A DNA stretch of 39,923 nucleotides from Schleiferiaceae bacterium (lineage in GTDB: Bacteria; Bacteroidota; Bacteroidia; Flavobacteriales; Schleiferiaceae), in contig JAURGG010000007.1 in assembly GCA_030833905.1 (NCBI GenBank), positions 1 through 39,923 of the forward strand. Direction: 5' to 3'. Position numbers and translations under genes: made by a program. Of this stretch, positions 9,098-18,935 are shown piece by piece; the stretch's first letter is position 1; every line of letters begins with the position of its first letter. Under the pieces are notes generated by a model that saw only the letters and a list, made by a program, of their open reading frames with translations, was not told the DNA's origin and ran no database searches.

Positions 9098-10516
9098 ATG
9101 GCTGACATGGTTTTAAGCGCCGCGCAGAAGGCGCTCCGCACCAACCTAAACCCCAATATTTACGGGTCATTTGCAGAAATTGGCGCAGGCCAAGAAACCG
9201 TGCGTCACTTTTTTCGCGCTGGCGGTGCTTCTGGCACGATTGCCAAGGCGATGAGCGCCTACGATAAGGAGTTTTCAGATGCCATTTACGGTCAGGAATC
9301 CGACGGCAGGTATGTGACTGAGACGCGTTTGCGCAAAATGCTGCACCACGAGTACGGCCTGCTGCACGAGCGCATTGATCGAGATCGCTCTCCCGACAAA
9401 TGCTTTTTTGCGTTTTCGAATACTGTAGCCACCATCAACTTTGCCAAGACCTTTAAAGGCCATGGATGGTTAGGTATTCGCTACCAAACGCGACCGGACG
9501 GCGAAGCCAACGAGGTCATCGTACACGTTCGTCTTCACGAAGACAATGCCAAGTACCAGCAAGAAACGATTGGCGCCATGGGCGTCAACCTGATTTATGC
9601 CGCCTACAACTTTTATGACGAACCCAAGAAGTTCTTGATGAGTTTGTACGACGGCATCGAAAAGTCCGCCATCGAAATTGATTTGATCAACTTTTTAGGT
9701 CCTGATTTTGAGCACGTAGACAATCGTTTGATGTCGCTTCAGCTCATTAAAAATGGCTTTACCGATGCGGTCATTTTTGGACCAGAGGGCAAAAACCTGC
9801 TCCCCGCAGAGCTGCTCTATAAAAAGAACATTTTGGCCATGCGCGGAAGCTTTCGCCCGGTGACCAAGGTGAACATGGACATGATCAAAAAGGGCTATAA
9901 AGAGTTCATCAAGTCCAATAAGGTTGAAAAAGAGAGCACGGTAGTGCTCTTTGAAATCACGCTCAACAACCTCCTCGCCGACGGGAACCTCGACGAGCAA
10001 GACTTCTTGGACCGCGCCGATATTTTGTGCAGCATTGGCCAAACCGTGCTGATCTCGAACTATCAGGAATACTACCGATTGGTGGACTACTTCGCAAGCT
10101 TTACAAAGAAGCGCATGGGCCTCATTATGGGAGTACCCTCACTTCAGGAGATTTTCGAAGAGAAGTACTACGACCACCTCACGGGCGGAATTCTCGAGGC
10201 GATGGGCCGACTGTTCTCAAAGAGTTTAGTTATCTACGCGTATCCATTTCGAGGAGAAGAGAGCATTACCACGACGAACGACATCATCGTAAATGATTTG
10301 TTTAAAAACATTTACGACTACCTGAAGCAAGCACGCCGCGTCCGCGACATAGAGAATTTTGATCCTGAAATTCTGAGTATTTGGAGCCGCGACGTGCTTC
10401 GTCGCATACGAAATGGCGAGACGGGATGGGAGTCCTGCCTTCCGACCTACGTGGATACGATCATTAAAGAAAAGGGCTTGTTCGGGTACCCGAAGGCAGA
10501 GGCGCTTCAGTCTTGA
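9098..10516 (+). CDS. Conserved 472-residue protein of unknown function
   Basis: I recognise this as a conserved family in Bacteroidota and some other bacteria, but no function is settled. Orthologues have carried inconsistent automatic names, and I see no nucleotide-binding or catalytic signature that supports one. The N-terminal third is highly regular: GSFAEIGAGQETVRHFF, GGASGTIAKAMSAYDKEFSDAIYG, then LRKMLHHEYGLLHERI. The FSNTVATINF and YQTRPDG segments follow, and a long alpha/beta-looking C-terminal half. No signal peptide or membrane segment is visible, so it is probably cytoplasmic. The start is set by the TACCTTTG box five bases upstream. It is divergent from the PhnP-like hydrolase and overlaps phr by 10 bases tail to tail. 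Confidence 0.8.
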   Translation: MADMVLSAAQKALRTNLNPNIYGSFAEIGAGQETVRHFFRAGGASGTIAKAMSAYDKEFSDAIYGQESDGRYVTETRLRKMLHHEYGLLHERIDRDRSPDKCFFAFSNTVATINFAKTFKGHGWLGIRYQTRPDGEANEVIVHVRLHEDNAKYQQETIGAMGVNLIYAAYNFYDEPKKFLMSLYDGIEKSAIEIDLINFLGPDFEHVDNRLMSLQLIKNGFTDAVIFGPEGKNLLPAELLYKKNILAMRGSFRPVTKVNMDMIKKGYKEFIKSNKVEKESTVVLFEITLNNLLADGNLDEQDFLDRADILCSIGQTVLISNYQEYYRLVDYFASFTKKRMGLIMGVPSLQEIFEEKYYDHLTGGILEAMGRLFSKSLVIYAYPFRGEESITTTNDIIVNDLFKNIYDYLKQARRVRDIENFDPEILSIWSRDVLRRIRNGETGWESCLPTYVDTIIKEKGLFGYPKAEALQS

Positions 10517-11820
10517 GTACTTCCTAAACCCGATTTATAGCGCTCCAAGCAACGTTGCCGTGCCCAAGCGTGGTCGACGATTGGTTGAGCGTACAACGGT
10601 GTACCGTATTCAGGAACCCACTTCTTGACGTATTCCAGTTTTCGGTCAAATTTCTCCAGCTGCGATTGCGGATTGAAAATCCGGAAGTAAGGAGCCGCGT
10701 CGGTGCCCGACCCACTCGCCCACTGCCAACCTCCGACATTACTCGCTTGGTCAAAGTCAAGAAGTTTTTGGGCAAAGTAGGCCTCTCCCCAGCGCCAGTC
10801 GATGAGCAAGTGCTTGGTAAGAAAGCTTGCGACTACCATGCGGACTCTGTTGTGCATGTAGCCCGTGGTATTGAGTTGGCGCATCCCGGCGTCCACCATC
10901 GGATAGCCTGTTTGTCCCTCGCACCACGCGGCAAAGTGCGCTTCATTTGATTCCCACTCGATTCGGTCGTAGGCTGGCTTAATTGCCTTCTTTGGACTTT
11001 CAGGAAAATGGTAGAGGACCATTTGGTAGAAGTCCCTCCAAATTAACTCGTTTACAAAGGTTTCACTCGCCTCTTGGCCCGCTCGAAGGAGTGCGCGCAC
11101 GCTAATGGTTCCGAAGCGAAGGTGCAACCCAAGGCGCGTGGTGCCCTGCTCGTCGGACGGAATGTCGCGCCGCTGCGCGTAGTGCACGAGGGTGTCGTGC
11201 GACCAGGTTTTCGGAGGCATGGATATGCCGCTTGGCTCAAACCCCATGGACTCGAGCGACGGAACGTAATTGTGGGGCTTGGACTTGGCCAACCCCCTAT
11301 CCAATAAGTTTTCAGACGGGTAGTTCGGAATGCCATTAGCCTCAAGAGCAGCACGCCATCTGCGGCTGTACGGAGTGAACACGGTATAGGGCAATCCATC
11401 AGGCTTTACCACTTCGGACTTCTCAAAAACTACATGGTCTTTGGCGCCTTTGAACCACCGATCACCTTCGCGGTACAGTGCTTCAATGCGGGCATCGCGT
11501 TCGCGGGCATAGGGCTCGTAGTCACGATTGGCAAAGACTCCTTGGATTTCAGGGTGGTCCACAATCCACTGACGGTGAATGTCCTCGGGAATTCCGTAGC
11601 CGCACCATAGGTTTGCACCCAAGGCCTGCAGTTCGTCCTTAAGGCGTTCGACTTCACCGTGTATGAATTGCACGCGAGCGTCGGTGCGATCCTCTAGGCG
11701 GTCAAGAATGTTTCGGTCAAAAATGAATACCGGCTGCACCGGGATTCCGAGCTCAAGGGCGCGAAACAAGCCTGCGTTGTCGGACAGACGAAGGTCGCGT
11801 CGAAACCAAAAAAGTAGCAT
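10507..11820 (-). CDS. phr: Deoxyribodipyrimidine photolyase, class I CPD type
   Basis: Photolyase repairs UV-induced cyclobutane pyrimidine dimers with blue light, using FAD and an antenna pigment. The 437-residue protein begins with the photolyase alpha/beta domain (LLFWFRRDLRLSDNAGL) and ends with the FAD-binding helical domain: GYPMVDAGMRQL, GYMHNRVRMVVASFLTKHLLIDW and DQASNVGGWQWASGSGTDAAPYFRIFNP. The Asn in ASNVGGWQW faces the flavin N5 in repair-active photolyases, which argues against a signalling cryptochrome. It is the last gene of the seven-gene sigma/carotenoid operon and starts 2 bases after the folE stop. Its 3' end overlaps the convergent gene at 9098. Confidence 0.95.
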   Translation of the reverse strand: MLLFWFRRDLRLSDNAGLFRALELGIPVQPVFIFDRNILDRLEDRTDARVQFIHGEVERLKDELQALGANLWCGYGIPEDIHRQWIVDHPEIQGVFANRDYEPYARERDARIEALYREGDRWFKGAKDHVVFEKSEVVKPDGLPYTVFTPYSRRWRAALEANGIPNYPSENLLDRGLAKSKPHNYVPSLESMGFEPSGISMPPKTWSHDTLVHYAQRRDIPSDEQGTTRLGLHLRFGTISVRALLRAGQEASETFVNELIWRDFYQMVLYHFPESPKKAIKPAYDRIEWESNEAHFAAWCEGQTGYPMVDAGMRQLNTTGYMHNRVRMVVASFLTKHLLIDWRWGEAYFAQKLLDFDQASNVGGWQWASGSGTDAAPYFRIFNPQSQLEKFDRKLEYVKKWVPEYGTPLYAQPIVDHAWARQRCLERYKSGLGSTQD

Positions 11821-11822
11821 GG

Positions 11823-12506
11823 CTAGCCCTTCATGGCCTGCAAGAACTCGGCGCGGGTCGCGGGATCACGGAACTTTCCACCAAAATGACTGGTAGCAGT
11901 TGAGCTGTGTGCATCCTCTACCCCGCGCATTTTCACGCAGAGATGTTCGGCGTCGACGTACACAGCTACATCCTCAGTGCGCAGCACGCGCTTGAGTTCA
12001 GCTGCAATCTGCTCGGTGAGTCGCTCTTGAACCTGCGGGCGCTTGGCAAAGTGCCGCACAATTCGGTTGAGTTTAGAGAGTCCGACCACTTCACCTGACG
12101 AAAAGTAGGCCACATGGCAGACCCCCAAAATGGGTACGAAGTGGTGTTCGCAGGTTGAATGCAGGGTGATGTTGCGTTCGAGCACCATCTCGTCGTAGTG
12201 GTAGCGGTTCTCGAAGAGGGTGACCTCTGGCTTGTTGAGCGGATTCAGACCCGCAAACTGCTCGAGGACGTACATTTTTGCCACGCGTCGCGGGGTATCC
12301 TTGAGTGAATCATCGCTTCGGTCCAATCCAAGGATGTCCATGATTTCGCCAAATTTCTCGGCGATGCGTTCGATTTTCTCAGAGTCCGGCTGAAGAAGAT
12401 TTTCTTCAATGGTGGGAGTTGCAAGGTGGCGACCGTTGGCGGGCTTGATGCCGTTGTTGGTCGGAGTTCCGTGAAAAGATTTATTGTGCGCCATCGTATT
12501 CGACAA
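11823..12506 (-). CDS. folE: GTP cyclohydrolase I
   Basis: FolE converts GTP to 7,8-dihydroneopterin triphosphate, the common precursor of folate, biopterin-type pterins and queuosine. The zinc site is visible in LHSTCEHHFVPILG (Cys and His) and EHLCVKMRG (second Cys). DTPRRVAKMY and SKLNRIVRHFAKRPQVQERLTEQIA are standard. The ORF has an N-terminal extension of about 40 residues of low complexity. Two in-frame starts, 12506 and 12494, both overlap the PTPS gene; I kept the longer one without strong evidence. Its position between PTPS and phr suggests a light-regulated supply of pterin (or folate antenna) rather than the housekeeping folate copy. Confidence 0.93.
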   Translation of the reverse strand: MSNTMAHNKSFHGTPTNNGIKPANGRHLATPTIEENLLQPDSEKIERIAEKFGEIMDILGLDRSDDSLKDTPRRVAKMYVLEQFAGLNPLNKPEVTLFENRYHYDEMVLERNITLHSTCEHHFVPILGVCHVAYFSSGEVVGLSKLNRIVRHFAKRPQVQERLTEQIAAELKRVLRTEDVAVYVDAEHLCVKMRGVEDAHSSTATSHFGGKFRDPATRAEFLQAMKG

Positions 12507-12909
12507 AGTTTCGTGGGGTTTCGTACAAGGTGATGTGCAGGTCTACGTGCACGGGAAGGTGTGGCCGCAGCCACTCCCAAATAGCTACCGCGATAAATTC
12601 AGCCGAGGGAACCCGATCAAAGAACTCAGGAACTTCTTCATTGAGGTTGCGGTGGTCAAGGCGAGCTTCTACTTCGCGCTTTATGAGGCTCGAAAGGATT
12701 CCGAGGTCGTATACATAGCCCGTAACAGGATCTATAGGGCCCGTTAACTTGACGATGAGTTCGTAGTTGTGTCCGTGGTAGCGCGGATTGGAACAGGGTC
12801 CAAACTGCGCTTCATTCTGGGCATCGGTCCAGGACTTCACATAGAGCCGATGTGCCGCATTAAAGTGCGCATGACGGCTTACGGATGCGCGAAGTGGTTT
12901 GGTATTCAT
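12481..12909 (-). CDS. 6-pyruvoyl-tetrahydropterin synthase, animal-type active site
   Basis: PTPS-family enzymes act on dihydroneopterin triphosphate, the FolE product. This 142-residue protein has zinc ligands H20 (FNAAHRL), H45 and H47 (HGHNY), catalytic Cys39 in FGPCSNPRYHGHNY, the D85-H86 pair and E130. The spacing C-x5-HGH and the surrounding residues (for example GPIDPVTG and DHRNLN) match mammalian PTPS. QueD, the queuosine enzyme, has C-x3-HGH. I therefore expect 6-pyruvoyl-tetrahydropterin, a precursor of tetrahydrobiopterin-like compounds, rather than carboxy-tetrahydropterin. No sepiapterin reductase is encoded in the window. The gene overlaps idi by 4 bases and folE by up to 26, so the three are co-translated. 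Confidence 0.88.
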   Translation of the reverse strand: MNTKPLRASVSRHAHFNAAHRLYVKSWTDAQNEAQFGPCSNPRYHGHNYELIVKLTGPIDPVTGYVYDLGILSSLIKREVEARLDHRNLNEEVPEFFDRVPSAEFIAVAIWEWLRPHLPVHVDLHITLYETPRNFVEYDGAQ

Positions 12910-13430
12910 TGCGGAAGTTGGCTTTGGTATTCACGAAAAATGATTTGGAACCAAGCCGTGAACTGCTCTGGATGCGCATCCATTTCTCGAGTCAATTCGG
13001 ACATTGAGATCCAGCGCACCGCCTCGACTTCTTCGGTGTTGAGGGTGACGATTCCGTCAAACCGACCAAGAACCACGTGATCAAGCTCATGCTCGGTGAG
13101 GCCGTTGTCGAATTCTGCGCGGTAAATGAAGTGAAAGGAATCCTTCAATTCAGAGATTTGAGAAGGGTCAATGCCCAGTTCTTCATTAAGGCGGCGGGTT
13201 GCGGCTTCAAGATTGGACTCTCCTTCGCGCTGGTGGCTGCAGCAGGAGTTGGTCCACAAAAGTGGCGAGTGGTACTTACCGGCTGCACGCTGCTGGAGCA
13301 AGGTTTCTCCGCGCTCGTTGAACAAAAAAACTGAAAATGCGCGGTGAAGGAGTCCGCGCTGGTGCGCCTCGAACTTCTCCATCCGCCCCACCGGCTGGTC
13401 GGCCGTGTTGACGAGGATAACTGTTTCCAT
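12906..13430 (-). CDS. idi: Isopentenyl-diphosphate delta-isomerase, type I
   Basis: Idi interconverts isopentenyl and dimethylallyl diphosphate, the building blocks of carotenoids. The 174-residue Nudix-fold protein has the active-site cysteine in WTNSCCSHQ (C64 aligned with the E. coli catalytic Cys), the Nudix-like segment EAATRRLNEELG, and the catalytic glutamate in TEHELDHV (near 113-115). It lies 6 bases after crtB and overlaps the PTPS gene by 4 bases, so it is part of the light-response operon, where it would raise precursor flux to phytoene. Confidence 0.95.
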   Translation of the reverse strand: METVILVNTADQPVGRMEKFEAHQRGLLHRAFSVFLFNERGETLLQQRAAGKYHSPLLWTNSCCSHQREGESNLEAATRRLNEELGIDPSQISELKDSFHFIYRAEFDNGLTEHELDHVVLGRFDGIVTLNTEEVEAVRWISMSELTREMDAHPEQFTAWFQIIFREYQSQLPQ

Positions 13431-13436
13431 AGTGGA

Positions 13437-14273
13437 CTATAATAAATTCAATGCGTGGCGCACGAATGAGCTGGCAAAGAGACGGTATTTTTTACGGTTA
13501 CTGATTCGAATACGCGACGAAAACACTTCTGATGAAGGTGTGCGCATAATTTTTTGAAAAAGTGCGTAGTAGTACATGTAGGCGATGTACACGCCGAATC
13601 GAGAACCTTTGGGCAGTCGAAGAATGCCCTCGTAGCCTTTGCGGAAGTCGCGTTCAATGTCGCGCTCAATAGCCATTTTGGCATCGTCGTCGAATTGCGC
13701 GAGGTCTACATTGGGGAAGTAAGTGCGGCCAAGCGCCTGAAAATCAGCAGCCACATCGCGTAAAAAGTTGATTTTTTGAAACGCGGAACCGAGCTTCATC
13801 GCATACGGAGTTAGTGCCTCGTACTGTGATTGATCGCCATTGACAAAGACTTTGAGGCACATGAGCCCCACTACTTCGGCACTGCCGAGAATGTACTGCT
13901 CGTAGGCGGATTGGTCATAGGTGCGGTCCTCGAGATCCATTTCCATCGAACGCAAGAAGGTATTGATCAATCCACGGTCAATCTGGTAGGCATTCACGAC
14001 ATACTGAAAGGCGTGTAGGACCGGGTTCGTCGAAATCCCCTCGTCAATGGCGCGGTCGGTATCGGCCCAAAAGCGCTCCAACAAGTCGCGCTGGTTCGTG
14101 CCATGAAACGTGTCTACGATTTCGTCCGCAACGCGTACGAATCCGTATACCGCATAAATCGGATCGCGAAGCGGCTTGGATAAACCAAGGATTCCGAGCG
14201 AAAAAGATGTGGAATACGCCTTGGTAATTCCCTTGCTCGTTCGGATCGACGTTTTCGTGTAGAGGTCCATCAT
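13437..14273 (-). CDS. crtB: Phytoene synthase
   Basis: CrtB condenses two geranylgeranyl diphosphates head to head into phytoene. The 278-residue protein has both aspartate-rich motifs that bind magnesium-diphosphate: DEIVD at 50-54 and the NFLRDVAAD stretch, plus the FQKINFLRDVAADFQALGRTYFP signature. The frame is open farther upstream inside crtI, but family homology starts at MMDLYTKTS; ATG 14273 overlaps the crtI stop by 4 bases and ATG 14270 by 1, and either is possible. The tight overlap with crtI implies coupled translation. Confidence 0.94.
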   Translation of the reverse strand: MMDLYTKTSIRTSKGITKAYSTSFSLGILGLSKPLRDPIYAVYGFVRVADEIVDTFHGTNQRDLLERFWADTDRAIDEGISTNPVLHAFQYVVNAYQIDRGLINTFLRSMEMDLEDRTYDQSAYEQYILGSAEVVGLMCLKVFVNGDQSQYEALTPYAMKLGSAFQKINFLRDVAADFQALGRTYFPNVDLAQFDDDAKMAIERDIERDFRKGYEGILRLPKGSRFGVYIAYMYYYALFQKIMRTPSSEVFSSRIRISNRKKYRLFASSFVRHALNLL

Positions 14274-15742
14274 ACTAAAGGATGTTCTTTGGTGATTTCG
14301 CGCGCCACTACTTCTCCTGAAATGATGCACGGAGGTACTCCGGGCCCGGGAACGGTAAGTTGCCCGGCGTAGTACAAGTTGTTGAGCTTGCCCTTAAGGC
14401 TTGGCTTAAGAATGGCGGTTTGGTCAAGGGTATTGGCCAATCCGTAGGCGTTTCCCCGGTGCGCGTGGTACTCTTTCACGAAGTCACGGTAGGCAAAGCT
14501 GCGCTGAATTACAATGTGCTCGCGAATGTCCATACCAATTTGAGCCTTCATTCGTTCAGCGACCATGTCGAGGTAGCGCTGGCGCGTGGCATCATCGTCC
14601 TCAAGGCCAGTCGCCATTGGAATAAGTATAACCAGTGCATCCTTTCCTTCAGGCGCAGCACTTGGGTCGGTTGCCGAGGCGATGCTCAAGTAGAACAGTG
14701 GTTTTTCGGGCCAACGTGGGTTCGTGTAGATCGCGTCGGCATGGGTGTCAAAGTCCGCATCAAAAAACAGGGTATGGTGCTCTAAACCTGTAAGCTTAGT
14801 ATCCAATCCCAAGTAGTACATGAATGCCGACGGAGCCATTTTGCGCTTCGCCCAGTAGTTCGCGGTGTAGCGGCGAAATTCCGGCTTCACCAATTTTTGT
14901 TCGACGTGCGCGTAGTCGGCTGAGGCAACTACTACGTCAGCTGTGTGGAGCGTGTTGCCCACGTAGACGCCAGAAATGGATTTGCCCTCGTAGGCAAAAC
15001 CCGTTACTTCTTGATTAAAGTGAAACTTCACACCTTGCTCTTGAGCAAGTTGGTAGAATCCTTGGACCACTGAATACATTCCCCCGACGGGGTACCACGT
15101 GCCTTGAGCGAAGTCTGAATAGTTCATCAAGCTGTAAAGCGCTGGCGTGTTGCTCGGTGTCGCCCCCAAAAAGAGCACCGGAAACTCGAGCAGTTGGCGC
15201 AGCTTGGGGTGACTAACAACCTTGGCGATGCTGCTGCGAATGCTGCGAAGCAGATCCATGCGCAAGAGTCCAGTTAGAATACGGACGTCGGCAAATTCTA
15301 GCACGCTCCGCGAAGGTTTGCGCACCAGATCGTCGATTCCGACGCGGTATTTGTACTCAGCGTCCTTTAAAAACGCGCGAAGCCGAACGGCGGAGCCGGG
15401 CTCCAGTCGATCAAATAAGGCCTCAATTTCGCTCATTTGGGCGGGGATTGGCATGGGGCCATCCTCAAAGTAGATGCTGTAGGACGGATCCAATCGGCGA
15501 AGTTCGTAGTAGTCGCTGGACTTTTTGCCAAAGTGACCAAAAAACGTCTCAAACACGTCGGGCATCCAGTAAAATGAGGGGCCTAAATCAAACGTGTAGC
15601 CCTCGTGGACCCACTGGCGTCCCCTACCTCCTGGGCCATCGTGCATTTCAAGTACTTCAACCTCATAGCCCGCTTGAGCCAAATAGGCAGCACTCGACAT
15701 TCCTGCAAAACCGGAGCCAATTACAATTGCTTTCTTCTTCAT
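14270..15742 (-). CDS. crtI: Phytoene desaturase (CrtI type)
   Basis: CrtI is an FAD-dependent desaturase that converts phytoene to lycopene (or neurosporene) at the membrane. The 490-residue protein starts with the dinucleotide-binding fold AIVIGSGFAGMSSAAYLAQAG and the GGRGRQW motif. It ends with the bacterial phytoene-desaturase signature around YYAGQLTVPGPGVPPCIISG. CrtI-like ketolases or saturases cannot be excluded from sequence alone, but pairing with crtB supports phytoene as substrate. The ATG follows directly after the sigma-factor TAA with no gap. No lycopene cyclase or hydroxylase gene is in the window, so the end product is not known. Confidence 0.93.
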   Translation of the reverse strand: MKKKAIVIGSGFAGMSSAAYLAQAGYEVEVLEMHDGPGGRGRQWVHEGYTFDLGPSFYWMPDVFETFFGHFGKKSSDYYELRRLDPSYSIYFEDGPMPIPAQMSEIEALFDRLEPGSAVRLRAFLKDAEYKYRVGIDDLVRKPSRSVLEFADVRILTGLLRMDLLRSIRSSIAKVVSHPKLRQLLEFPVLFLGATPSNTPALYSLMNYSDFAQGTWYPVGGMYSVVQGFYQLAQEQGVKFHFNQEVTGFAYEGKSISGVYVGNTLHTADVVVASADYAHVEQKLVKPEFRRYTANYWAKRKMAPSAFMYYLGLDTKLTGLEHHTLFFDADFDTHADAIYTNPRWPEKPLFYLSIASATDPSAAPEGKDALVILIPMATGLEDDDATRQRYLDMVAERMKAQIGMDIREHIVIQRSFAYRDFVKEYHAHRGNAYGLANTLDQTAILKPSLKGKLNNLYYAGQLTVPGPGVPPCIISGEVVAREITKEHPLV

Positions 15743-16255
15743 TTAGTCGTTGCCGCGGATTCCGCGAAGCTGGTCCATCATTTTACGTCGTGCTAAGAAG
15801 ATACGGCTTTTTACCGTTCCCAAGGGAATGCCCATTTGGTCAGCGATCTCTTCGTACTTGTACCCATTAAAGTACATCATGAATGCGTCCAAGTAGGTAC
15901 GCTCTACATTCTCGATGCGATCAATGATATTGGCCATTTCGTAGGGGCTATCGGCTTCATCTTCGCGGTTGGCCATCATACCCCCAAGGACGTACTGGTT
16001 TTCGCTGTCGTCCGCGTAGGTATTTTGGTTCTTCTTCTTGCGGTAGTTGTTGATGAACGTATTCTTAAGGATGGTATACAGCCATCCACGAAGGTTTGTG
16101 CCCTCTTGGTACTTTGACTGGTTCTTGATCGCCTTGTAAAAGGTTTCTTGAACGAGGTCTTCAGCGTCTTCAGAATGGCGCGTGAGCTTCATGGCTAAAC
16201 CACGCAAGAACTGCTCGTGCTGAAAAATTTGGGGACCAAAGGACTCTGGGGGCAT
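15743..16255 (-). CDS. ECF-type RNA polymerase sigma factor
   Basis: This 170-residue sigma-70-family protein has only regions 2 and 4. Region 2 includes HSEDAEDLVQETFYKAIKN and LRGWLYTILKNTFINNYRKKK; region 4 includes YEEIADQMGIPLGTVKSRIFLARRKM, the -35-binding helix-turn-helix. An acidic linker lies between them. I chose ATG 16255 (MPPESFG); the longer frame needs a TTG codon at 16273 that falls inside an inverted repeat. It is the first gene of the operon containing crtI, crtB, idi, PTPS, folE and phr, and lies downstream of the CarH-like regulator gene. No anti-sigma gene is adjacent, which suggests control by transcription (through the regulator) rather than by a membrane anti-sigma factor. 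Confidence 0.92.
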   Translation of the reverse strand: MPPESFGPQIFQHEQFLRGLAMKLTRHSEDAEDLVQETFYKAIKNQSKYQEGTNLRGWLYTILKNTFINNYRKKKNQNTYADDSENQYVLGGMMANREDEADSPYEMANIIDRIENVERTYLDAFMMYFNGYKYEEIADQMGIPLGTVKSRIFLARRKMMDQLRGIRGND

Positions 16256-16262
16256 GTCGCTT

Positions 16263-16294
16263 TTGTTTAACAATTAGAACACTAAGTTAAACAA
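16263..16294. promoter_or_regulatory. Inverted repeat TTGTTTA-N18-TAAACAA, copy 1
   Basis: The left arm TTGTTTA is at 16263-16269 and the right arm TAAACAA at 16288-16294; the match extends to 9 bp (TTGTTTAAC / GTTAAACAA). It ends 7 bases upstream of the sigma ATG. It has the same arms and spacer as copy 2, 53 bp away. It is a candidate operator for the CarH/LitR-type regulator; it could also be read as part of an alternative-sigma promoter. Confidence 0.55.
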
Positions 16295-16315
16295 GAAATG
16301 TGCCGAGCCAACGCT

Positions 16316-16347
16316 TTGTTTAAACTTTTTATGAAAAGCATAAACAA
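16316..16347. promoter_or_regulatory. Inverted repeat TTGTTTA-N18-TAAACAA, copy 2
   Basis: The arms are at 16316-16322 and 16341-16347, with an 18-base spacer exactly like copy 1. Inside it lie the palindrome GTTTAAAC (16318-16325) and a second inverted repeat TTTATG-N5-CATAAA (16328-16344). The two copies are offset by 53 bp, about five helical turns, so proteins bound to both would face the same side. No TAnnTTTG box is present between 16256 and 16373 on the operon strand. Confidence 0.55.
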
Positions 16348-16373
16348 AAGGATGCCGAACTAAGTTAACTAGC

Positions 16374-17276
16374 TCAGAACGAAAGAGCTAACTCAGATGT
16401 CAGCTGTTGGCCAAGACTGGCTAGATTTGAGTATGTCACGGTGAGGTGATCTGGCGACTTCCAGTCTGAGACTGCTAACCCAGTTACCCAGAGGGGAACA
16501 TCACCCATAAACGAGCGGGCATCTGAAACGTACTGATCTATTGACTCTCGAGAAGGTTGAGTCGTCCAAACGCTTACCACTAATTTAAAGTGGTTCGTTT
16601 GCTTAAACAAGACCGCTAGGTGCTCGAGCGGAAGCGACTGTCCGAGAAAGACCACTGTGGTTCCGCGCGCCTTGAGCAAATAGTGCAGATAGAGCAACCC
16701 GAGTTCATGGAGCTCATCTTGCGGGAGGTACATAAGTACCGCTGGGCTCTTAACTGACATCCGCTGGTCCGTGAGGCGATCGAGCGCCGCATACATTTTC
16801 TGCTTGATCAGGTTACTCGCGAAGTGCTCGTGAGCGACGCCAATGGCATCCGTCTGCCACATGTAGCCAATTTGGTGAATGAATCCACCAACGACGTGCG
16901 TAAAGGTGTGCTCCTCTCCCGCCTCGCGAATACTCGTATCGAGAATCTGCGAGAAGGTCAACTCGTCGAGATCGATACAGGCTTGGATTAAGCGGGTAAC
17001 TTGGGCGGTTTGGCTTCCGTGCTGCAGGGCTTCTTCAAGAATCTTTTGACTAAGCTGCTCGCGCGACAAATCGGCGATTTTGCTAATACGCCAGCCTTTC
17101 TGAATGAGAACCGCAACGTTGAGCAGGGTTTTTAGGTCGTCGTCGGAATAGGTACGAATGTTGGTGTCGGTCCGTTTGGGCACGACAATTTCGTAGCGCT
17201 GCTCCCAAATACGGAGCGTGTGGGCCTTAATGCCCGTGAGGTGCTCCAAATCTTTGATGCTGTACGACGACTCCAT
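16374..17276 (-). CDS. MerR-family B12-binding light regulator (CarH/LitR type)
   Basis: CarH/LitR proteins are repressors that bind adenosylcobalamin in the dark as DNA-binding tetramers and come apart in light. The 300-residue protein has a MerR winged helix-turn-helix at about 5-72 (YSIKDLEHLTGIKAHTLRIWEQRY), a four-helix bundle at about 85-170, and a Rossmann-like B12 domain from 175. W140-x9-E150-H151 matches the residues that cap the adenosyl group in Thermus CarH. E188-x-H190-x2-G193 is the cobalt-ligand motif. The later GG of classical B12 domains is only partly kept (TGLAV). It lies directly upstream of the sigma/carotenoid/photolyase operon on the same strand and probably represses it in the dark. 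It is divergent from prfC; no TAnnTTTG box is seen for it. Confidence 0.92.
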   Translation of the reverse strand: MESSYSIKDLEHLTGIKAHTLRIWEQRYEIVVPKRTDTNIRTYSDDDLKTLLNVAVLIQKGWRISKIADLSREQLSQKILEEALQHGSQTAQVTRLIQACIDLDELTFSQILDTSIREAGEEHTFTHVVGGFIHQIGYMWQTDAIGVAHEHFASNLIKQKMYAALDRLTDQRMSVKSPAVLMYLPQDELHELGLLYLHYLLKARGTTVVFLGQSLPLEHLAVLFKQTNHFKLVVSVWTTQPSRESIDQYVSDARSFMGDVPLWVTGLAVSDWKSPDHLTVTYSNLASLGQQLTSELALSF

Positions 17277-17323
17277 AGTGGCTTTAACCCATAGATTTAA
17301 AAAAGGTTCGGCGCGGAACTACC

Positions 17324-17331
17324 TACCTTTG
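17324..17331 (+). promoter_or_regulatory. prfC -7 promoter box TACCTTTG
   Basis: An exact consensus match 20 bases before the prfC ATG, which allows a short 5' leader of roughly 13 bases. No clear -33 TTG is seen upstream in the short divergent gap. Confidence 0.55.
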
Positions 17332-17351
17332 CAGCCCGCAATTTAGCCGAT

Positions 17352-18935
17352 ATGTCGAATTTACACACGGAGCTTCAGCGCCGCAGAACCTTTGGAATTG
17401 TTTCGCACCCTGATGCGGGCAAAACGACCCTTACCGAGAAGCTGCTTCTTTTTGGCGGAGCTATCAACGAAGCCGGAGCCGTCAAGAGCAACAAAATCAA
17501 AAAGGGCGCGACGTCAGACTTTATGGAGATCGAGCGGCAGCGCGGAATTTCGGTTGCGACCTCGGTCATGGCCTTTGAGTACCAGGGCAAGCACATCAAC
17601 ATTCTCGATACGCCGGGCCACCAAGATTTCGCTGAAGATACCTACCGCACCCTCACCGCGGTAGATAGTGCCATCGTGGTCGTCGACGTGGCCAAAGGTG
17701 TAGAAGCCCAGACTGAAAAGTTGGTCAATGTCTGCCGCATGCGCGCCACCCCCATCATTGTGTTCATCAATAAGTTGGACCGCGAGGGCCGCGATGCGTT
17801 TGACCTACTTGACGAAATCGAATCCAAATTGGGGCTTCGCCTCTGCCCGCTTTCGTGGCCAATCGGAATGGGCGCCCAGTTTCAGGGCGTCTACGACGTG
17901 TGGTCCAAATCTCTGTTGATTTACGACCAAGTCAACAAGCAAAAGGTAGCAGAGGGTGTAGCATTTAGCGACTTGGACAACCCTGAGCTTGTTGAGCGCA
18001 TCGGCGCCAAGGCTGCTGAAACCTTACGCGAAGAACTCGAATTAGTCGCAGGGGTATACCCGGAATTTGATCAAGACGCCTACTTGCGCGGAGAGCTACA
18101 GCCGGTGTTTTTCGGTTCCGCCCTCAACAACTTTGGGGTGCGCGAACTGCTCAATTGCTTTGCGGAAATTGCTCCGCACCCCCAACCCAAAGCTGCCGAG
18201 GAGCGCGTGGTTCACCCTGAAGAGGCGAAGTTCAGCGGATTTGTATTCAAGATTCACGCGAACATCGATCCAAACCACCGCAGCCGCATTGCGTTTGTCA
18301 AGGTGGTCAGCGGAACCTTTGAACGCAACACCAACTATCTGCACGTCCGCGAGGGCAAGAACCTGAAATTCAGTTCGCCTATGACGTTCTTGGCGAGTAA
18401 GCGTGAGGTGGTTGAGGAAGCCTACCCTGGCGACATCGTTGGTCTTCCTGATACCGGACTCTTTCGAATTGGGGACAGCTTAACAGGCGGCGAGTCGCTT
18501 CACTTCAGCGGAATTCCGTCCTTTTCGCCCGAACACTTTCGCTTTATCAATAATGCTGACCCCATGAAATCCAAGCAGTTGGCCAAAGGAGTGGACCAGT
18601 TGATGGACGAAGGGGTGGCCCAGCTGTTTACGCTTGTCGCCAACGGACGAAAGGTCATCGGAACCGTAGGCGCATTGCAGTACGAGGTCATCCAATACCG
18701 TCTTGAGCACGAGTACGGAGCGAAGTGTTCGTACGAACCCTTCCCCGCCTACAAAGCACTGTGGGTAGAAGGCAAGGACGCCGGACAGCTCGCCGAACTT
18801 GAGCGCATGAAGGCCCGCCAACTCGCCCACGACAAGTTTGGACGCTTGGTATTTTTAGCGGACTCACAGTTTGGACTGCACATGACGCAAGAAAAGTTTT
18901 ACCGCATCGTATTTCACGAAAAGAGCGAATTCTAA
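17352..18935 (+). CDS. prfC: Peptide chain release factor 3
   Basis: RF3 is a translational GTPase that removes RF1/RF2 from the ribosome after termination. The 527-residue length is normal. The GTPase domain has P-loop HPDAGKTT (19-26), the RGISVATSVM switch, DTPGHQDF and NKLDREG. Beta-barrel domain II and the RF3-type C-terminal region (VGALQYEVIQYRLEHEYG) follow. The ATFG-type opening RRRTFGIVSHPDAGKTTLTEKLLLFGG separates RF3 from EF-G. It is a single gene, divergent from the light regulator, and ends in a strong bidirectional terminator. Confidence 0.97.
   Translation: MSNLHTELQRRRTFGIVSHPDAGKTTLTEKLLLFGGAINEAGAVKSNKIKKGATSDFMEIERQRGISVATSVMAFEYQGKHINILDTPGHQDFAEDTYRTLTAVDSAIVVVDVAKGVEAQTEKLVNVCRMRATPIIVFINKLDREGRDAFDLLDEIESKLGLRLCPLSWPIGMGAQFQGVYDVWSKSLLIYDQVNKQKVAEGVAFSDLDNPELVERIGAKAAETLREELELVAGVYPEFDQDAYLRGELQPVFFGSALNNFGVRELLNCFAEIAPHPQPKAAEERVVHPEEAKFSGFVFKIHANIDPNHRSRIAFVKVVSGTFERNTNYLHVREGKNLKFSSPMTFLASKREVVEEAYPGDIVGLPDTGLFRIGDSLTGGESLHFSGIPSFSPEHFRFINNADPMKSKQLAKGVDQLMDEGVAQLFTLVANGRKVIGTVGALQYEVIQYRLEHEYGAKCSYEPFPAYKALWVEGKDAGQLAELERMKARQLAHDKFGRLVFLADSQFGLHMTQEKFYRIVFHEKSEF

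Follow-up and report, generated by a model that had tools for sequence, protein, structure and literature searches.

Paired inverted repeats between a CarH/LitR-type regulator gene and a carotenoid-photolyase operon as a candidate bipartite operator in Bacteroidota

The 39,923 nucleotides of Schleiferiaceae DNA analysed here, which we call the window, contain a gene for a CarH/LitR-type regulator directly ahead of a presumed operon for a sigma factor, carotenoid and pterin synthesis, and a photolyase. Between the regulator and the sigma gene lie two copies of one long inverted repeat, and the question raised by this locus is which protein reads them and to what effect. The features are as follows.

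16374..17276, minus: CarH/LitR-type regulator of 300 aa (P0001), with a MerR DNA-binding domain, a B12-binding helical bundle and a Rossmann-like domain
16316..16347, no strand: candidate upstream operator U, the same inverted repeat as D, at about -70 to -39
16309..16311, minus: putative -33 element (TTG), lying between D and U and separated by 19 nt from the -7 box
16282..16289, minus: putative degenerate housekeeping -7 box TAACTTAG, one mismatch, inside D, a position occupied by TAACTTTG in many relatives
16277, minus: predicted transcription start with a 22-nt 5' leader, placed from the box position -12 to -5 given in an excerpt of PMC9723704
16263..16294, no strand: candidate downstream operator D, a TTGTTTA-N18-TAAACAA repeat whose arms match perfectly over 9 bp, at about -17 to +15 relative to the predicted start
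15743..16255, minus: ECF sigma factor (170 aa), with which the presumed operon begins
14270..15742, minus: phytoene-desaturase-like flavin oxidoreductase (Pfam Amino_oxidase; named by context)
13437..14330, minus: phytoene synthase (Pfam SQS_PSY)
12906..13430, minus: NUDIX protein, probably isopentenyl diphosphate isomerase (function by context)
12481..12909, minus: 6-pyruvoyl-tetrahydropterin-synthase-like protein
11823..12506, minus: GTP cyclohydrolase I
10507..11820, minus: DNA photolyase family protein

The repeats, the promoter and the regulator beside them

The regulator, whose carotenoid genes follow in the operon downstream, has an N-terminal MerR domain recognised by Pfam (MerR_1, 9.9e-16) and also by the structure model and Foldseek, followed by the B12-binding helical bundle (PF02607) and a Rossmann-like C-terminal part read from the structure model (mean pLDDT 92). 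The top Foldseek match and best solved relative is Thermus CarH (5c8d/5c8e), which matches residues 4-253 of 300 with an E value of 1.7e-23. The ExHxxG motif of AdoCbl-using CarH is present as ELHELG, and the motif W-x9-EH is present as WQTDAIGVAHEH. In an alignment of 25 regulator sequences W140, E150, H151, E188 and H190 are invariant, and the last G of ExHxxG varies, being S or A in some relatives. The role of W-x9-EH in AdoCbl-using CarH is given in an excerpt of PMC8156234.

The two repeats are D, TTGTTTAACAATTAGAACACTAAGTTAAACAA (16263-16294), and U, TTGTTTAAACTTTTTATGAAAAGCATAAACAA (16316-16347), and together they make up most of the 118-nt gap between the regulator stop codon and the sigma ATG at 16255. 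The arms of D, TTGTTTAAC and GTTAAACAA, are perfect over 9 bp, while those of U are perfect over 7 bp, or 8 counting the next pair outwards. A first-pass annotation had given these two positions in the leader of the sigma operon beside the CarH-like gene, an offset of 53 bp and perfect 9-bp arms for the first copy, and all of this was borne out (16316 - 16263 = 53, with both copies exact). Its identical geometry describes the two copies in the window well and fails as a general rule, with spacers of 17-19 and three offset classes in relatives. D and U are the only perfect matches to TTGTTTA-N18-TAAACAA in the window and in the whole genome (1,637,955 bases, 193 contigs), and the reversed pattern used as a control had no match with up to two mismatches in the 1.64-Mb genome. 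With up to three mismatches there are 3 matches in the window against 1.07 expected, and at three mismatches the genome holds 33 against 35 for the reversed pattern, which is background level, so that such loose matches are uninformative by themselves.

Housekeeping promoters of Bacteroidota have a -33 TTG and a -7 box TAnnTTTG about 19-21 nt apart. In the window, the candidate is TTG-N19-TAACTTAG, with one mismatch to TAnnTTTG. The earlier statement that this leader lacks a housekeeping box is right for the exact TAnnTTTG, which does not occur in the sigma leader of the window, but it overlooked the one-mismatch TAACTTAG at 16289-16282 (minus). In many relatives TAACTTTG begins 5 nt into D, often with a TTG 18-20 nt ahead, and the spacing from TTG to box in many relatives is 18-22. 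At this conserved -7 place TAACTTTG is replaced by TAACTTAG or TAACTTCG in the window (16282-16289) and in L006-L009, L060 and L290. The box in Flavobacterium lies at -12 to -5 according to an excerpt of PMC9723704, and from this box placement U would therefore lie at about -70 to -39 and D at about -17 to +15. A scan of the locus for E. coli-type promoters, a scan type that is uninformative for Bacteroidota, found none, and terminator-like stems in the same scan (16377-16355 and 16405-16386) fell outside the repeats. Ahead of the regulator's own start in the window there is no autoregulatory site with up to three mismatches.

We consider it very probable that both repeats form a bipartite operator of the adjacent CarH/LitR-type AdoCbl photoreceptor, with repression in the dark and release in the light; we infer the binding, its dependence on B12 and light, the repression and the cooperation between the sites by analogy. 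In the dark, the AdoCbl-bound regulator would occupy the four TTAAACAA-like half-sites that make up the two inverted repeats. One repeat would lie immediately ahead of the -33 element and the other over the -7 box and start site, and RNA polymerase would be excluded from the housekeeping promoter under and between them. Light would break the Co-C bond, the regulator would fall apart and leave the DNA, and once it is gone the sigma/carotenoid/pterin/photolyase operon would be expressed. Dark binding and light release are drawn from the CarH family as described in excerpts of PMC8156234 and PMC9304148.

Conservation of the site and its tie to the presence of the regulator

The regulator was found in 70 of 88 genomes of the family, with 72 matches. 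From 70 of these 72 loci, 64 had a sigma match in the retrieved stretch and supplied the leaders that were scored. All 64 hold D with up to two mismatches (34 with none, 25 with one and 5 with two) and 51 hold U, whereas dinucleotide shuffles reach this level in 3.6% (D) and 1.8% (U) of cases. The remaining two regulator loci, L179 and L180, each have a perfect site directly before the regulator gene, and L179 has a second one ahead of a phytoene-desaturase-like gene. Across the 88 genomes there are 66 perfect sites against 4 for the reversed control, one of the perfect sites being in a genome with no regulator match (G042).

For the phylum, the set combined 80 named loci, the best 80 among 587 candidates, with 29 further loci taken from a sample of 392 genomes; this sample gave 30 loci for 97 regulator matches, so that most matches lie outside the locus set. 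The 136 loci with a sigma match were reduced to 124 distinct leaders after removing repeats, and sites were accepted with up to two mismatches, a spacer of 17-20 and a position within 330 nt. At least one site is present in 123 of the 124 distinct leaders, L252 being the exception, and paired sites in 91, the other 33 having no pair at two mismatches; in shuffled leaders a site appeared in 25 of 372 and a pair in 1 of 372. Both sites are perfect in Pontibacter burrus (L193) and Algoriphagus winogradskyi (L259). Conservation in orthologous leaders had been set beforehand as a check on the first-pass annotation, and the site is kept in 64/64 family and 123/124 distinct phylum leaders.

Within the family, most sites are next to the regulator gene, which confounds a test of the link between site and regulator, and the test was therefore made on the phylum sample. 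Among the 392 genomes, presence of the regulator was called at E <=1e-25, those 'without' it having no match at this threshold, and the counts ignore kinship. In the 86 genomes bearing the regulator, 158 sites are perfect, compared with 24 for the reversed pattern; 58 of these genomes have at least one perfect N18 site and 28 have none. The 306 genomes with no regulator match hold 19 against 24, with 18 having one. Perfect sites thus exceed the reversed control only in the genomes of this sample where the regulator was found. In genus g21, three genomes with no regulator match (G289, G445, G472) have no sites, and G469, with a regulator match, also has none.

The site stays at the sigma gene where the regulator is elsewhere, as in L176 (G010), L177 (G011), L303, L304, L311 and L312, the sigma domains of L303, L311 and L312 being confirmed by Pfam. 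In L294, where the sigma gene lies upstream in divergent orientation, the sites follow that gene. Family f3 (probably Flavobacteriaceae) is represented in the 109-locus set by six loci (L278, L280, L283, L285, L287, L292). None of these has a sigma match in the retrieved stretch, and in all six a one-mismatch site stands 33 nt upstream of the start of the regulator gene itself. Several of the 109 loci have no sigma match and no site near the regulator (e.g. L195, L196, L200, L212, L213, L223, L228).

Sites were also found at other genes. In the genome of the window, the one further match at one mismatch (L003:1501-1532, contig 11) ends 51 nt before a rhodopsin gene (1584-2297, Pfam Bac_rhodopsin). 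A gene for a beta-carotene 15,15'-dioxygenase-like protein (L003:2353-3024, minus) is convergent to it. Among the family rhodopsin genes, upstream regions with 150 clean bases were kept and the others dropped, and 21 of these 53 regions have a site with up to two mismatches, where 200 shuffles averaged 1.26 and never exceeded 5; farther out, at 250-400 bases upstream, 0 of 52 stretches have a site. In the closest relatives of the window, L082, L083, L085 and L086 retain mainly the right arm of the rhodopsin site (3 mismatches), L087 and L088 have no site at 3 mismatches, and L084 reads N there. Rhodopsin is therefore a patchy target. The rhodopsin leaders of genus g18 (e.g. L093, L096, L099, L104, L121-L125) share a conserved GTTAA...GGTAGTTATAACCTTTAAT that is distinct from the operator.

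Pfam was applied to 20 proteins beside perfect sites, chosen by hand. Seven are fasciclin proteins (L143, L144, L149, L154, L170, L306, L314), three are ECF sigma factors (L303, L311, L312), two are rhodopsins from other families (L305, L310) and two are oxidoreductase-like (L150, L323); a phytoene-desaturase-like protein (L320) and a GTP cyclohydrolase I (L317) occur once each, and four have no clear light role (GDSL lipase L325, DUF4397 L172, CIA30 L169, MAM/fibronectin L175). Fasciclin-type lipoprotein genes start just after perfect sites in several genera, L145, L146 and L153 being similar by eye, and a role of these lipoproteins in light protection is possible. The GTP cyclohydrolase I gene of L317 (1605-2309) is a separate gene with its own perfect site, and in the window the pterin-synthase-like and GTP cyclohydrolase I genes (11823-12909) lie within the light operon; perhaps such genes supply the antenna pterin of the photolyase. 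In three species of genus g18 (L173:2445, L174:2443, L175:2473) a perfect site precedes a gene for a large secreted protein, with MAM and fibronectin domains in L175, and this gene is adjoined by one that is Crp-like by eye. Perfect sites inside genes (L296, L301, L309, L315, L318, L319, L321) are probably due to chance.

These data bear on the alternative that the repeats serve another factor, through autoregulation by the ECF sigma factor or an unrelated repressor, with the CarH-like protein a neighbour only by operon organisation. In the family, the sigma gene is indeed where most sites lie, and it has the regulator gene as a neighbour in 64 of 70 loci. However, regulator, crtI-like, rhodopsin and fasciclin genes also have sites ahead of them, the sites follow the presence of the regulator across the 392 genomes, and the three g21 genomes with no regulator match are free of them, as is G469 despite its match. 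A perfect dyad would also be unusual for a sigma-factor site. We therefore regard a role for another factor as improbable.

Shape of the operator and alternative readings of the repeats

Over 182 paired sites the spacer is 18 in 152, 19 in 29 and 17 in 1. For the 18-nt spacer, TGTnnA at +1 and TnnACA at +25 form the half-sites, which are present in 94-99% of paired sites, inverted and 24 bp apart. No same-orientation half-site 11 or 22 bp from the conserved ones reaches 12% of paired sites; the remaining peaks of the profile are mostly arms of the partner site, the one at U+34 reaching 15%.

The regulator might instead bind tandem direct repeats, like CarH of Thermus, Bacillus and Cystobacter, with the inverted repeat part of an array or incidental. 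The TnnACA core is shared with direct-repeat CarH operators, and inverted repeats of the Myxococcus CarA type proved not to be recognised (PMC9304148, in excerpt). Against this stand the 94-99% of inverted half-sites compared with less than 12% for the same orientation at 11 or 22 bp and a single 15% near 33 bp (U, offset 34), and the arm spacing, which was allowed to range from 17 to 20 and is 18 or 19 for 181 of the 182 paired sites. With no half-site at 11 or 22 bp reaching 12%, the direct-repeat reading was rejected, and we hold it to be quite unlikely.

The distances between the centres of D and U in the 91 paired leaders fall into three classes, 43-46.5 (36 leaders), 52-57 (41) and 63-64.5 (14), with none between. 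The classes are about 9.5 bp apart, the Rayleigh R being 0.82 at 9.25-9.5 and 0.72 at 10.5. A plain helical periodicity was thus rejected, the best period being 9.25-9.5 bp and not 10.5, and the claim is therefore one of discrete classes with 10-bp steps of the box, not of an exact helical repeat.

An exact TAnnTTTG is present at D in 56 of the 91 paired leaders. It starts 15/16 nt into D in the first class (14 leaders), 5/6 nt in the second (28) and 5 nt before D in the third (5), and the distance from U to the box is 57-61 throughout these leaders. The exceptions are six leaders of genus g18 (46 bp apart, box at 5, U-to-box 51) and L248, L274 and L276 (63-64 apart, box at 16, U-to-box 79-80); in 6 of the 91 (L007, L191, L197, L206, L276, L282) an exact box lies elsewhere. 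When leaders were grouped into 38 sequence clusters, 22 carried an exact box between -12 and +26 of D, and in 22/22 it was at -5, 5/6 or 15/16. At -5 and 5, however, some letters of the box belong to the operator arm as well, and this overlap may in itself favour these positions. The sequences suggest that U is fixed relative to the promoter and that D shifts by about one helical turn. Phase-locking is only suggested, because of these shared arm letters and because the class interval is nearer to 9.5 than to 10.5 bp.

The repeats could also be RNA hairpins belonging to a regulator-gene terminator or to a riboswitch in the leader, and the leader does fold better than its shuffles (z -2.5, with 4 of 200 shuffles folding equally well). 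However, over the 182 sites 133 pair cells show one-sided arm changes and 7 show compensatory ones, U is located ahead of the promoter box and the left arm of D before the predicted start, the spacers are 18 nt long and the arms A+T-rich, and no Rfam family matches within 15500-17600. With no Rfam family and arm changes mostly non-compensatory, an RNA structure was rejected as very improbable. Chance repeats in A+T-rich intergenic DNA, for which the unremarkable counts at three mismatches (33 against 35 in the genome) might speak, are a negligible explanation given 66 perfect sites against 4 in the 88 family genomes and their conservation in orthologous leaders.

Meaning of the paired site and comparison with known B12-photoreceptor operators

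Beyond the bipartite operator itself, we tentatively offer a joint reading that seems to us plausible but short of probable. Across Bacteroidota a single CarH-type tetramer, with four DNA-binding domains for four half-sites, might bind both repeats and clamp the promoter, D might move only in whole turns relative to the -7 box, and the regulator might directly control proteorhodopsin and the fasciclin lipoproteins. If this is true, B12 supply would govern the timing of solar energy capture and of protection against sunlight in these bacteria. An operator that is inverted, paired, apparently phase-locked and conserved widely in Bacteroidota would be another mode of reading DNA for the same protein family. 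The motif can be searched for the light regulon of Bacteroidota, and, with a site in 21 of 53 family rhodopsin regions, it yields a testable proposal for how light is coupled to the expression of rhodopsin in some members of the phylum.

The first-pass annotation had proposed an operator type not described before for LitR/CarH of Bacteroidota, and this agrees with the inverted, non-tandem arrangement and with the open-access literature, in which we recognised no CarH/LitR operator in Bacteroidota; an earlier prediction in subscription papers or regulon databases is possible. In the same phylum, Chryseobacterium lacus has light-induced carotenoids and a suspected CarA/LitR-like regulator, with no operator described in the excerpt of PMC7064467. 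The B12-photoreceptor operators described in the excerpted papers consist of direct repeats or, in class II LitR, of TGTACA pairs, and the inverted pair differs from both.

The class II LitR proteins of Pseudomonas (PplR1, PmlR2) have TGTACA-N12-TGTACA, with two sites at one promoter (excerpt of PMC9758184). They resemble the present case in symmetric paired hexamers with a TnnACA core, in two sites around the promoter and in light genes as targets. Their operator is not matched here, the hexamer being TAAACA and the spacer N18/19 instead of N12 (TGTTTA-N18/19-TAAACA); PmlR2 is also under the control of a LOV protein (PMC9758184), whereas the regulator in the window keeps the AdoCbl motifs.

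CarH of Thermus thermophilus and Bacillus megaterium belongs to the same family of B12-photoreceptor repressors, with a TnnACA core, carotenoid targets and an operator that overlaps a primary-sigma promoter (excerpts of PMC9304148 and PMC8156234). Its operators are tandem 11-bp direct repeats nnnnTnnACAn (PMC9304148), three or four in number, where here the inverted TGTTTA-N18-TAAACA occurs, usually twice, and the -7 box lies within or at the edge of the downstream site. The TnnACA half-sites are thus present here, and three or four tandem 11-bp half-sites are not. The earlier statement that the half-sites differ from the direct repeats of Thermus accordingly holds for their inverted arrangement and not for the TnnACA core, which is common to known CarH operators.

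In Myxococcus xanthus the CarA/CarH operator (PB, about -70 to -19) is also large, starts near -70 and blocks a primary-sigma promoter, and CarA binds it as two dimers; its second part covers the -35 element, whereas D covers the -7 box and start (excerpt of PMC8156234). For CarA, recognition was at one time assigned to inverted repeats, a proposal since set aside, and is now credited to direct repeats (PMC9304148, in excerpt). This case is a warning on symmetry, although in Bacteroidota, in contrast to Myxococcus, the inverted geometry is itself conserved. From the published CarH and LitR arrangements, therefore, the core found here is that of the CarH family and the arrangement is not.
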